From: Bryobacterales bacterium
GTDB lineage: Bacteria > Acidobacteriota > Terriglobia > Bryobacterales > Bryobacteraceae
DNA length: 32,319 nucleotides
NCBI GenBank assembly: GCA_003142185.1
Contig: PLOR01000060.1
Coordinates: 1-32,319 of the forward strand
Direction: 5' to 3'
Below are positions 5,637 to 27,230 of this stretch, piece by piece (the first letter of the stretch is position 1; each line of letters starts with the position of its first letter). The position numbers were made by a program, and so were the translations under genes. Under the pieces are notes generated by a model. The model was given only the letters and a program-made list of their open reading frames with translations. It searched no databases and was not told where the DNA came from.

Positions 5637-6683
5637 CTATTCCCCAACCTGGTCCTGAAGATCGTCCTCGGGGCCGTAATCGGCCGCCAGCGGGACCGCC
5701 GACTGCGGCGGCGTCACCAGCCGGCCATGGGCGTCAATCCGCATGCCGAGCGATAACCCCATGTTGGCCAGGATTTCCTTGATTTCGTTCAGCGACTTGC
5801 GGCCGAAGTTCTTGGTCCGCAACATTTCCGCTTCGGTCTTCTGCACCAGTTCGCCGATGGTCTGAATGTTGGCGTTCTTGAGGCAGTTGTAGGAGCGCAC
5901 GCTCAGCTCGAGTTCCTCGACCGAACGGTTGAGCACTTCGCCCATCTTGTCGAGGCCGCGCTCGGCGATCTCTTCGGCCTGCTCCGGCGTCTCCTCGAAG
6001 TTGATGAAGATCGTCATGTGGTCTTTGAGCAGCTTGGCGGCGTAGCCGACGGAATCCTGTGGCGAAACGGCGCCGTTGGTCCACACTTCGAGCGTCAGCT
6101 TGTCGTAATCGGTCATCTGGCCGAGCCGCGCGGCCTCCACCTGGAAGGTCACTTTGCGCACGGGAGAATGCACCGAATCGATGGGGATGTAACCGAGCGC
6201 CAGGTCTTCGTCGAAATTCTTATCCGCGCTGACGTAGCCGCGGCCGGTTTTGAGGCGCATTTCGATGTTCAGCTTGCCGCCCTCGCTCACGGTGGCGATG
6301 TGAACGTCGCGATCGAGCACTTCCACGTCGGCGTCGGCTTCGATCTGGCCGCTGCGCACGGGGCCTGGAGTTTCCACGTTCAGGCGCACGGTCTTGACGC
6401 TATCCCCGCTGAGCTTGAAGGGAATCTGTTTGAGGTTGAGGATGATGTCGGTGGCGTCTTCAACGACGCCCGGTATCGGGCTGAATTCATGCTCGACGCC
6501 TTCGATGCGCACGGCGGTAATGGCCGCGCCTTCAATGGAGCTCAGCAGCACGCGCCGCAAGCCGTTGCCGATGGTGGTGCCGAAGCCGCGCTGGAACGGC
6601 TGGGCGGTGAACATGCCATACCGCTCGGTGAGAGTATCGGTATTGGCGACCAAACGTTTCGGTTTCTGAAAGCCCTTGAACAT
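5637..6683 (-). CDS. rpoA: RNA polymerase alpha subunit
   Basis: The 348-residue alpha subunit that dimerises to start RNA polymerase assembly. The N-terminal domain carries [19 protein letters not shown], the dimerisation and beta-contact region. A flexible linker leads to the C-terminal domain ([19 protein letters not shown], then [14 protein letters not shown]), which contacts UP elements and activators. A short acidic tail follows. AGGAG lies 6 bases before the ATG, directly next to a heptad repeat array that fills the gap to rpsD. A separate promoter for rpoA is not evident. Confidence 0.98.
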
Positions 6684-6693
6684 AGAATCTCCT

Positions 6694-6754
6694 GGAAGTC
6701 AGAAGTCAGGAGTCAGAATCGAGCACCACGCCCGTCTTCTGGCTCCTGACTCCT
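6694..6754. repeat. Heptad inverted repeat array, copy A (rpsD/rpoA gap)
   Basis: The left arm (6694-6719) is a run of 7-bp units GGAAGTC, AGAAGTC, AGGAGTC. The right arm (6737-6754) is TTCTGGCTCCTGACTCC, their inverted counterpart, matching at 16 of 18 positions. About 17 unrelated bases lie between. In the transcript this would fold into a long hairpin just upstream of the rpoA ribosome binding site. Two more copies interrupt the same operon. Confidence 0.8.
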
Positions 6755-6772
6755 TTCTTATTCCTTCTTCCC

Positions 6773-7405
6773 TTACTTCGAGTAAAGCTCCACGATGAGC
6801 TGCTCGTTCATTTGTATCTGCACCAGGTCGCTGCGCTGCGGGAGCGCGGTAATGCGGCCGGTCAAACCTTCGCGATCCACATCGATCCAATTCGGCGCCG
6901 GGGCGTGGGCCGTGGCGTCGCGCGCGGCGAGGATGGTCGGGTTCTTCTTGCTCGCTTCGCGAACGGAAACCACATCGTTGGGCTTGACTACGGCCGAGGG
7001 GATATCGCACTTGCGGCCATTCACGTTGATGTGCCCATGACGAACGATCTGGCGGGCCTGGGCGCGGCTGGTGCCGAAGCCCATGCGGTAAATCACGCTG
7101 TCCAGGCGGCGTTCGAGCGCGCTCAACAGGTTTTCGCCCGTGATGCCCTTGGCCGCGGCGGCCTTCTCGTAAGCATTGCGGAACTGGCGTTCCAGCACGC
7201 CGTAAATGCGGCGCACCTTTTGTTTTTCGCGCAACTGGAGGCCGTAGCCGACGATCTTGGGCTTGCGGTCCTTGCCATGCTGCCCGGGGATGAAGTTGCG
7301 CTTTTCGATGGCGCACTTTTCGCTGTGGCAGCGCTCACCTTTGAGAAACAGTTTGGTGCCCTCGCGCCGGCATTGCCGGCAAACCGGGCCAATGTATCTT
7401 GCCAA
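6773..7405 (-). CDS. rpsD: 30S ribosomal protein uS4
   Basis: uS4 is a primary 16S rRNA binder that nucleates 30S assembly and in many bacteria represses its own operon. The 210-residue protein has an N-terminal zinc ribbon (Cys9, Cys12, Cys26, Cys31) and an S4 RNA-binding domain from about residue 98 ([29 protein letters not shown]). The C-terminal VELYSK is typical. Gene order rpsM-rpsK-rpsD-rpoA-rplQ is the classical alpha operon. Confidence 0.98.
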
Positions 7406-7503
7406 GTTCTTCTCCTTACCTTTCTTCTAACCAGGTGCGGTTTACAGCCATGGCAGGCTTTCTTCCCGCTTACATCACCGGCATTCGTTGCCGGCCGAAC
7501 ACA

Positions 7504-15815: not shown

Positions 15816-15930
15816 GGAAGTCAGAAGTCGGAAGCAAGAAGTCGGAATGTAAAGCCGCGCGGCCGTCGCCATTCTGGCTCCTGACTCCTGGCTCCCGACT
15901 TCTGTCTCCCGACTCTTGTCTTCTCTCTTC
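15816..15930. repeat. Heptad inverted repeat array, copy B (rpsQ/rplN gap)
   Basis: The left arm (15816-15849) has units GGAAGTC, AGAAGTC, GGAAGCA, AGAAGTC. The longer right arm (15872-15930) has about eight inverted units such as TGGCTCC, TGACTCC, CGACTTC and TGTCTCC. A GC-rich centre of some 22 bases separates them. The right arm runs directly into the rpsQ stop codon. The units are more mixed than in the other two copies. Confidence 0.8.
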
Positions 15931-20335: not shown

Positions 20336-20968
20336 TTACCTCTTGGACCTCCGCACGACCACGTAGCCGCCATTGGGTCCGGGCACCGCGCCCTTCACCA
20401 CCAGCACGTTGTCCTCGGTGTCCACTTCCATCACCTCCAGGTTGCGCACCGTGACGCGCGCATCGCCCATGTGGCCCGCCATGCGCATCCCCGGCACCAC
20501 ACGCGAGGGGTAACTGGAAGCGCCGATGGAACCGGGAGCGCGATGGAACATCGACCCGTGCGTGCCTTCGCCGCCGCGGAAGTGGTGGCGCTTCACCAGG
20601 CCGGCGAAGCCGCGGCCCTTGCTGACGCCGATCACATCCACTTTGTCCTTCGGTTTGAACTGGTCCACCAGCACCTTGTCGCCGAGCTTGAAATCGCCGT
20701 CGCCGGTCTCCAGGTGGAACTCGCGCAGGAATTTGCTGCCTTCCGCGCCAGCCTTTTTGAGATGGCCCGTGGCGGGTTTGTTGATCCGCTGCGGCTTGAC
20801 GAACTCCACCAGCCCGAGCTGCATGGCGTCATACCCATCCGTGGTGGGCGTCTTGCGCTGCACCACCGTGCATGGACCCGCCTTGAGCAGGGTGACCGGC
20901 ACCGCCTGTCCGTCGGGCCGGAACATCTGCGTCATTCCGATTTTTTTACCGAGAATTCCTGGACTCAT
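20336..20968 (-). CDS. rplC: 50S ribosomal protein uL3
   Basis: uL3 is one of the first proteins in 50S assembly and reaches the peptidyl transferase centre. The 210-residue sequence starts [20 protein letters not shown]. It carries [20 protein letters not shown] and, in the central loop, [18 protein letters not shown]. That loop lacks the glutamine methylated by PrmB in E. coli, as in many bacteria. No good Shine-Dalgarno precedes the ATG: the sequence upstream is the edge of a heptad repeat array, read as CTCC rather than GGAG. Confidence 0.97.
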
Positions 20969-20973
20969 ATGTT

Positions 20974-21101
20974 GAAGGAGTCAGAAGTCAGAAGTCAGGA
21001 GTCAGAATCGCTCCCCGCCTCGTCGTTCGCTCCGTACTCCTTTCGGCGCCAGGCCAGCCGGAAACAGACTTCTGTCTCCTGACTCCCGACTCCTGTCTTC
21101 T
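20974..21101. repeat. Heptad inverted repeat array, copy C (rpsJ/rplC gap)
   Basis: The left arm (20974-21008) repeats GGAGTCA, GAAGTCA, GAAGTCA, GGAGTCA. The right arm (21064-21101) gives the inverted units AGACTTC, TGTCTCC, TGACTCC, CGACTCC, TGTCTTC. About 55 unrelated bases lie between. The right arm overlaps the rpsJ stop codon. This is the largest spacing of the three copies. Confidence 0.8.
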
Positions 21102-21420
21102 ACTTTCCAAACGCCTTGATCTCCACATCCACGCCCGCCGGCAGATCGAGCTTCATCAGCGCGTCCACCGTCTGCTGGGTCGGCTCCAGGATGTCCAAAA
21201 GCCGCTTGTGCGTCCGGATCTCAAACTGCTCCCGCGACTTCTTATCCACGTGCGGCGAGCGAAGGACCGTGGTGATGCTGCGCGAAGTTGGCAGCGGAAT
21301 CGGGCCCGCCACGGAAGCGCCGGTGCGTTTGGCCGTATCCACGATCTCGGACGTCGACTGGTCGAGCACCCGGTGATCGTAAGCCTTCAATCGGATGCGA
21401 ATGCGTTCTCTCAGCGCCAT
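21100..21420 (-). CDS. rpsJ: 30S ribosomal protein uS10
   Basis: uS10 sits in the head of the small subunit and, outside the ribosome, takes part in NusB/NusG antitermination. The 106-residue protein has [38 protein letters not shown] and [20 protein letters not shown]. The ATG at 21420 has GGGGA 5 bases upstream and gives the family length; an in-frame TTG at 21435 is rejected. It follows tuf by 81 bases, with no separate promoter seen. Confidence 0.97.
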
Positions 21421-27152: not shown

Positions 27153-27202
27153 GGGGACAGGCACGAAGTTTCGCAAAAGCAGCGAAATTCGTGCCAGTCC
27201 CC
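27153..27202. repeat. Long palindromic repeat, family 5, likely bidirectional terminator
   Basis: The arms 27153-27174 (starting GGGGACAGGCACGAA) and 27182-27202 (TTCGTGCCAGTCCCC at its end) pair along about 20 bp with two interruptions, around an AAAAGCA loop. It lies between convergent gene ends and is followed by GTTTTG on the plus strand. It is the strongest hairpin in the 3' half of the window. Confidence 0.75.
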
Positions 27203-27230
27203 GTTTTGCAGCGCCCGCTTTGCAGCGCCG

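Follow-up and report, generated by a model that had tools for sequence, protein, structure and literature searches.

The inverted array between rpsD and rpoA is probably a single member of a class of palindromes dispersed through intergenic DNA, which we term heptad hairpins and which would be DNA-level repeats tolerated in the space from a stop codon to the following ribosome-binding site. In a heptad hairpin, a short loop is flanked by two tandem arrays of a degenerate 7-bp unit, inverted relative to each other; in the genome analyzed here it takes the form (TCAGRAG)n, loop, (CTYCTGA)n. Across related genomes the elements keep this structure, a period of 7, a placement in operon gaps and a common polarity, and they occur in several copies per genome, with units that differ by genome and by gap. 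Because they are scattered over many gaps in Acidobacteriota and spell different 7-base words, they have the look of spreading or self-expanding DNA and not of a switch made for one operon.

Three inverted heptad arrays in a ribosomal operon

The window (the whole stretch of 32,319 nt that was analyzed) is filled by the minus-strand S10/spc/alpha ribosomal operon. Pfam was used to check nine genes (fusA, tuf, rpsJ, rplC, rpsQ, rplN, rpsD, rpoA and rplQ), and the others were named on the assumption that they follow the gene order of this operon. Inverted arrays of the heptad TCAGRAG (equivalently GRAGTCA) occupy three gaps, rpsD–rpoA, rpsQ–rplN and rpsJ–rplC, all of them flanked by minus-strand genes according to Pfam (Table 1).

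Table 1 Features of the window
Feature	Coordinates	Strand	Basis
Inverted heptad element, rpsD–rpoA gap	6696..6759; plus-strand arm 6696-6718 (AAGTCAGAAGTCAGGAGTCAGAA), loop 6719-6736, second arm 6737-6759	-	arm alignment and fold
AGGAG, likely rpoA Shine-Dalgarno	6689..6693	-	direct reading; 2 nt from 3' arm, 5 nt from ATG
rpoA, RNA polymerase alpha subunit	5637..6683	-	PF01000, PF03118, PF01193
rpsD, ribosomal protein S4	6773..7405	-	PF00163, PF01479
Conserved leader directly upstream of rpsD, around GTAAACCGCACC	7406..7490	-
Second inverted heptad element, rpsQ–rplN gap	15816..15925; arms 15816-15848, 15870-15925	-	limits by eye
Third inverted heptad element, rpsJ–rplC gap	20976..21103; arms 20976-21009, 21066-21103	-	limits by eye
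14-bp unit (CCCGCTTTGCAGCG) in two copies	27200..27229

The first-pass annotation had described such an array between rpsD and rpoA and the same design in two further gaps of the operon, and both observations hold. Allowing one mismatch, GRAGTCAGRAGTC matches 14 times in the window compared to 0.04 expected from 100 shuffles, which rules out a chance repeat, and all 14 matches fall in 6695-6753, 15817-15909 and 20977-21100. The lone RGARGTC unit is weakly enriched (20 versus 12.3 expected, with 4 of 100 shuffles reaching 20); the outstanding feature is the tandem, inverted layout of the units rather than the single unit. The annotation had also remarked that the GAAGTC arm lies on the left. 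This is true, but an inverted repeat is the same on both strands, so the polarity belongs to the palindrome rather than to transcription.

At rpsD–rpoA, alignment of the arms gives two 23-nt arms around an 18-nt loop, with 13 nt between the rpsD stop codon and the element. The mRNA strand over this gap (121 nt) has a predicted fold of -44.3 kcal/mol (z = -3.1), in which the arms would pair next to the rpoA ribosome-binding site, as had been suggested; given its composition, the antisense strand of the same stretch folds just as well (z = -3.2). Read directly from the fold, the hairpin is followed by CCAGGAGAUUCUAUG without a U run or tract, which rules out an intrinsic terminator. The third array extends onto the rpsJ stop codon. 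Between this array and the rplC start (window 20966-20990) we saw no clear Shine-Dalgarno sequence by eye, unlike at rpoA and rplN, where GGAG adjoins the array.

No Rfam family matched the window at gathering score, including the conserved leader upstream of rpsD. This leader also occurs in eight other loci (L031, L032, L033, L034, L037, L101, L108 and L115), with GCGGG before GTAAACCGCACC and AAAGGTAAGGAG after it in most copies, and with possible stems GCGG/CCGC and ACCT/AGGT; as a guess, it may be an S4 autoregulation site. The two copies of the 14-bp unit lie ~2.4 kb upstream of fusA.

Copies elsewhere in the genome

Counted genome-wide, as the first-pass annotation had proposed, the unit proved to be low-copy: exact GAAGTCAGAAGTC occurs six times, three of them in the ribosomal operon, and exact GRAGTCAGRAGTC 14 times, six of them in the operon. 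With up to one mismatch, the two-unit pattern has 68 matches in the 5.8-Mb genome compared to 10 for a reversed control. We found 20 places outside the window and examined 16 of them with their flanks (leaving out C28, two in C92 and C109). At least ten further places carry the TCAGRAG unit, in co-directional, divergent and convergent gaps. According to simple-script gene calls, two-armed arrays lie between co-directional genes at L117 and L124, divergent genes at L119 and convergent genes at L121, and L127 is also two-armed, with no upstream gene called there. Other places have single-arm arrays (for example, L122, L123 and L125), and three single matches that sit within called reading frames look like chance. 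When 13 elements from this genome were aligned with three from relatives, the arms were evident and the loops appeared faintly alike by eye. A role fitted to this operon, which the annotation had suggested from repeats inside a compact essential operon (RNA processing, attenuation or differential gene output), finds no support, the same unit being present also in divergent and convergent gaps of the genome.

Period, inversion and placement across related loci

To place the element in a wider context, we used 81 loci, consisting of the window and its 80 best RpoA relatives (1.31 Mb). Among the best relatives, metagenome assemblies of Acidobacteriota predominate (Terriglobia, Bryobacterales and Solibacter-like), which suggests that the genome of the window is of this kind too. 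The titles of five loci point to other phyla (L036 Nevskia, L040 Acidimicrobiia, L096 Woeseiaceae, L109 Anaeromyxobacter and L110 Desulfuromonadales), of which L036 (83% RpoA identity) and L040 (79%) are probably mislabelled.

A lag scan of these loci revealed 199 runs scoring at least 13 at lag 7 and 131 at lag 14, compared to 2 and 1 in shuffled sequence. Other lags gave 25 runs (lag 8), 14 (lag 16) and seven or fewer (lags 4, 5, 10, 11 and 13, with 6, 4 and 7 for the last three), and the coding lags 6, 9, 12 and 15 gave 29-44. Within 5' arms, identity was 0.71 at lag 7 and 0.70 at lag 14, versus 0.17-0.25 at the other lags from 4 to 15. The lag-7 clusters number 186 and come from 47 of the 81 loci. 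No gene was mapped on one side for 29 of them; among the other 157, only three had their midpoint in a mapped operon gene. Arm pairs matched as reverse complements in 71 cases, compared to 6, 5 and 1 for the same, complement and reverse controls, and a looser caller gave a weaker contrast (90 versus 26, 24 and 6).

From the 186 clusters we extracted 137 elements in 34 loci, leaving out stretches >320 bp and stems scoring <13. These elements have a stem of ~31 nt, a median loop of 15 nt and a total length of ~80 nt. They lie a median of 3 nt from the upstream stop codon and a median of 26 nt from the next start, the latter with a wide spread (n = 101). Two very rich genomes were examined over 91 kb; their 21 clusters there span 2.3 kb, and five lie within ORFs of a crude caller.

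The rpsD–rpoA gap is not special among operon gaps. It holds a strong heptad array in 13 of 81 loci (21 of 81 at a laxer threshold, compared to one shuffled gap), and arrays are found in 23 of 77 loci at rpsK–rpsD and 18 of 78 at rpoA–rplQ. In 11 of the 68 loci without a strong array at rpsD–rpoA, the gap is just 12-18 nt long; many relatives thus do without a hairpin at this place. Gaps with an array were longer than those without one at rpsH–rplF (90.5 versus 35 nt), rpsM–rpsK (99 versus 23 nt), rpoA–rplQ (106 versus 26 nt) and rpsK–rpsD (147 versus 119 nt).

Two other kinds of sequence were seen in front of rpoA. In Terriglobales-like loci (L047, L049, L050, L054, L057, L067 and L093), a stretch between the repeat and rpoA, ~110 nt upstream of rpoA, looks conserved and structured by eye; it reads CCAGATCAGCCT or similar ... 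GACC ... GAGCC...GGCCGAAGGAG, and had no Rfam match in L047, L050, L054 and L057. Acidobacteriaceae loci have another conserved stretch before rpoA (AAGGAGAACTTGCGCGGCCGCCGCAAAATG). Rfam matched a tRNA and nothing else in seven related loci.

Turnover and inheritance

The operon of a same-genus genome (G036) aligns to that of the window in pieces with 82-98% DNA identity, mostly 86-90%. The two-unit pattern has no match there (up to one mismatch) in the 20 kb with the operon and no exact match genome-wide, and all three gaps hold other sequence: by eye, GC-rich palindrome-like sequence at rpsD–rpoA and rpsQ–rplN, and a short hairpin at rpsJ–rplC. Since this sequence is palindrome-like but of another kind, a preference for some hairpin at these gaps is possible. 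The G036 rpoA matches in two overlapping pieces in different frames (G036:C122:16059-17103), which represents a frameshift or assembly error.

Other relatives vary in both unit and place. In L032 and L034, TCAGRAG arrays lie in rpsN–rpsH or rpsK–rpsD, with none at rpsD–rpoA, where L031 and L032 carry TCAGCYN; rpsJ–rplC is absent from the mapped gaps of L031-L034 and L101. The differences at the gap in G036 and other relatives rule out a conserved rpoA-specific element. The first-pass annotation had listed random placement among relatives as evidence against its reading, and the variability seen in G036, L031, L032 and L034, together with the 13 of 81 loci above, largely supplies that evidence. 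Non-heptad palindromes were also noted by eye in L034 (rpsH–rplF), L032 (rpmD–rplO) and L115 (rpsD–rpoA, rpsQ–rplN and rpsJ–rplC). They include an CGCGGAGGCGC type, an CACGGATGAACACGGAT type and GC-rich hairpins, and their presence in near relatives indicates that operon gaps collect several kinds of palindrome.

Units were similar in 24.6% of 382 pairs of elements from the same genome, compared to 9.2% of 8433 pairs from other genomes and gaps and 12.2% of 501 pairs from other genomes at the same gap. Loops were alike (z > 3) in 5 of 34 same-genome pairs with the same unit (L059, L093 and L090, three of them within L059), in 2 of 111 same-genome pairs with other units and in 5 of 33 pairs with the same gap and unit in different genomes (including L074/L075, L059/L104 and L054/L093). 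Based on this likeness between and within genomes, elements appear to be inherited for a time and some to be copied within a genome.

Finally, we considered whether one arm is copied onto the other unit by unit. Arm-to-arm pairing at variable positions was 0.659 versus 0.493 permuted (121 of 137 elements, gapped stems left out). After shuffling and realigning whole heptads, the pairing excess was small (mean z = 0.9, or 0.67 without the loop-side heptad). As the test favours the chosen register and the realigned excess is small, we draw little from it and set unit-by-unit copying aside.

RNA-level or DNA-level upkeep

An unlikely alternative is that the array is a functional intercistronic mRNA hairpin, kept as an RNA structure that would stabilize, process or insulate messages while its sequence is free to change. 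The strong fold predicted next to the rpoA ribosome-binding site fits this idea, as does the other hairpin-like sequence seen by eye in the same gap of G036, L033, L034 and L101. Heptad gaps fold strongly, with a median z of -5.0 on the sense strand (79 gaps) compared to -1.2 for 154 other gaps of 45-220 nt, 38% of which hold a significant inverted repeat. In operon gaps, raw fold energy also leans to the sense strand, being lower in 98 and higher in 54 of 153 (mean -2.6 kcal/mol, p = 5e-5), a lean that holds in 33 of 43 loci, and the predicted folds have 77 G·U pairs in sense versus 57 in antisense (p = 0.04).

Other evidence weighs against it. The antisense strand of the heptad gaps folds nearly as well (median z = -4.3), and after normalization by shuffling the preference for sense is marginal (47 of 79 gaps, p = 0.05; the set covers 12 gap types of 45-220 nt, with rpsD–rpoA and rpsK–rpsD not among them), so much of the lean in raw energy may stem from the base composition of the mRNA strand. 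Upkeep as RNA should make stem mismatches on the mRNA strand more often G·U than A·C. The 115 operon elements have 221 G·U and 209 A·C mismatches (p = 0.60), with 17 loci leaning to G·U and 11 to A·C, and selection on RNA judged by this measure was rejected for want of a clear excess. On the other side, the remaining stem mismatches are strand-biased, with 189 purine-purine and 97 pyrimidine-pyrimidine on the mRNA strand. The many relatives with array-free and even very short rpsD–rpoA gaps, and the copies between divergent and convergent genes, likewise argue against a kept mRNA structure.

Unit words and polarity

By eye, the rpsD–rpoA gaps of relatives hold inverted arrays of unlike heptads (for example, TCAGCYN, GTCGTTR, TCAGGGR and GTCCGRA), and rough clustering separated the 15 arrays of L047 into eight unit groups. 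The polarity of the units was nonetheless shared. Using arms whose 5' member was set by pair or stem alignment, TCAG units spaced by 7 were found in the 5' arm of 40 elements (19 loci) and the reverse, CTGA in the 5' arm, in one. A tetramer count gave 199 versus 4, which overlaps the 40:1 count and is not independent of it. The 5' arm leans the same way for TTAG (11:0), TTGG (12:3) and TCGG (12:6), and less clearly for CCAG (5:2) and TTGA (6:3). In G397 and G399, TCAG comes first and CTGA second in all 16 opposite-strand pairs <200 bp apart among the places listed, as read by eye; four of these, on G397:C30, may belong to the same operon. Orienting arms by keto content instead gave no polarity (TCAG in 20 of 182, CTGA in 28 of 182), a result that we attribute to this orientation by composition, with some arms merged across loops.

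Arrays anchored on YYRG made up 76 of 137 elements, compared to 36.5 (maximum 51) after phase permutation, and the mirrored CYRR 29 compared to 24 (maximum 35). Counted by pattern, the numbers were 107 of 137 versus 42.5 (maximum 54), and 36 versus 29 (maximum 44) for the mirror. Among units of the 76 anchored arrays, 2.6% deviate at position 4 (G) and 38% at position 7. The YYRG-NNN description clearly suits about half of all arrays and not the others. Across genomes, it is the same positions of the unit that stay fixed or vary, a regularity that plain slippage is insufficient to account for. One conceivable source, which we regard as distinctly unlikely, is an Acidobacteriota-wide hairpin generator: an enzyme or replication process that would write inverted 7-nt YYRG-NNN arrays with the YYRG strand running towards the center, able to use several words within one genome and to rewrite a site in a new word. 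Such an activity, if real, would be a programmable or self-renewing writer of repeats rather than plain slippage.

Spread through Acidobacteriota and Y1 transposases

Of 297 Acidobacteriota genomes, 162 contained the TCAG triple-heptad pattern TCAGNNNTCAGNNNTCAG; in many of them it matched just once or twice, the maximum was 2518, and 63 genomes had at least 20 matches by hand count. The isolate Terracidiphilus gabretensis (L063) has 91 such triple heptads and a lag-7 array at rpoA–rplQ. A backwards control (GACTNNN x3) was raised in many genomes (1128 in G151), exceeded the pattern in some (G164 and G216) and equaled it in the window's own genome (5 each); since it also fits GACTYCT, the other strand of the window unit, it is not a clean control for the TCAG family. 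Two non-Acidobacteriota genomes, reached via loci L109 and L110, had zero triple heptads. Within family f32, two genomes of 8.3-8.4 Mb (G151 and G163) have ~2500 triple heptads each, and three of 3.7 Mb (g151: G196, G223 and G265) have 0 or 1; the number of arrays may rise as genomes expand.

Like REP/BIME sequences with RAYT transposases, heptad hairpins are small, dispersed, intergenic palindromes able to fold in mRNA, although we know of no heptad arrays in REPs. The REP/BIME palindrome of 20-40 bp bears a GTAG or CGTC tetranucleotide tag at one end, according to the available text of PMC3733652. That our elements are non-autonomous REP/MITE-like transposons, mobilized by an insertion sequence or a Y1 (HUH) transposase, is very unlikely. 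In addition to the dispersal of the palindromes, this idea draws on Y1_Tnp matches, which occur in 51 of 63 array-rich genomes (at least 20 matches) versus 138 of 234 others (p = 0.001, from hand counts that ignore lineage and genome size); the window genome has seven. This association is weak and the remaining 12 rich genomes have no match (for example, G216, G242 and G289, some being incomplete drafts), which may set the arrays apart from RAYT-linked REP/BIME and does not bear out a Y1 transposase as a required mover. Loops are mostly not common to copies, with z ≤ 3 in 29 of 34 same-genome, same-unit pairs, unlike the whole-element conservation of MITEs. Among relatives we found no clean empty site at high identity, the G036 gaps holding other sequence, and we identified no insertion boundary, target duplication or enzyme.

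Comparison with known repeats

The arrays agree with heptad repeats of the Xanthomonas and Geobacter types (Geobacter being of a phylum other than Acidobacteriota) in having exact 7-bp tandem units, convergent inverted arrays and an intergenic, multicopy distribution. In Geobacter metallireducens, 'class 3' sites with the consensus MTYCTGA are predicted global regulator binding sites; the available text lists 16 sequences in one genome, with fifteen sites of five heptads (Aklujkar 2009, PMC2700814). They resemble our arrays in their tandem, strand-switching, multicopy heptads, and the reverse complement TCAGRAK covers the window unit TCAGRAG (PMC2700814). They differ in being read as regulator sites, with no analysis of unit turnover or polarity in the portion of that paper available to us. 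That the arrays are likewise binding sites for a DNA- or RNA-binding regulator, by analogy with that proposal, is highly improbable: the degenerate motif with its near-invariant G and free position 7 and the TCAGRAG-type unit named in the accessible Geobacter text would suit it, but several unlike units coexist in one genome and relatives have different units or places.

The GGGAATC repeats of Xanthomonas are, as far as the available text of that study goes, 89% and 93% intergenic in two genomes, with 70 and 75 convergent inverted pairs; they have one G-rich unit, studied as a G-quadruplex, and the authors were unable to assign them a role (Rehm 2015, PMC4692102). They share with our arrays the period of 7, degeneracy, intergenic and inverted arrangement, proximity to stop codons and variation in length and sequence between species. 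According to the same text, 83% of GGGAATC sites are common to both species, whereas in our arrays the unit itself differs between relatives (PMC4692102). The TAACTGA repeats of Beggiatoaceae (the reverse complement of TCAGTTA, a TCAGNNN heptad) also lie inside ribosomal operons, upstream of L3, S4 and fusA. As described in the text at hand, they differ in forming 169 direct-repeat sets and one indirect set, mostly with no hairpin, and in lying mostly just upstream of start codons (MacGregor 2015, PMC4679880). Heptads have been known since 2007 to be in excess in bacteria, and polymerase slippage was put forward as their origin (Mrazek 2007, as cited in PMC4692102 and PMC4679880), a proposal left untested in what is available of these two accounts.

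By their likeness to the Geobacter, Xanthomonas and Beggiatoaceae repeats, the present arrays belong to a known kind. Among the literature matches listed, from a search in which subscription journals were largely outside the scope, no paper treated heptad repeats in Acidobacteriota. Their spread through this phylum, the use of different units by relatives at the same gaps and the shared polarity thus appear not to have been described before.

Discussion

If heptad hairpins are DNA-level repeats, arrays would arise and stay uniform by 7-nt slippage or by conversion between units, and whole hairpins would occasionally be copied to new sites. Selection would then clear copies from coding sequence and mostly spare those that lie after a stop codon and ahead of the following ribosome-binding site. 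With its strong predicted mRNA hairpin, the rpoA-proximal copy might slightly affect rpoA translation or RNA decay, which we take as a side effect rather than the cause of its presence. Some observations sit poorly with the DNA-level reading: whole-hairpin copying is seen in few pairs (5 of 34), the sense strand is favoured in raw energy and G·U pairs, and stem mismatches other than G·U and A·C are biased to purine-purine.

The case is also a caution that palindromes within ribosomal operons need not be regulators. Acidobacteriota provide a natural experiment, with many aligned sites in the same essential operon at which the unit changes while its period of 7, its inverted layout and the TCAG polarity persist, and which for this reason make the question of what writes 7-bp repeats a testable one.
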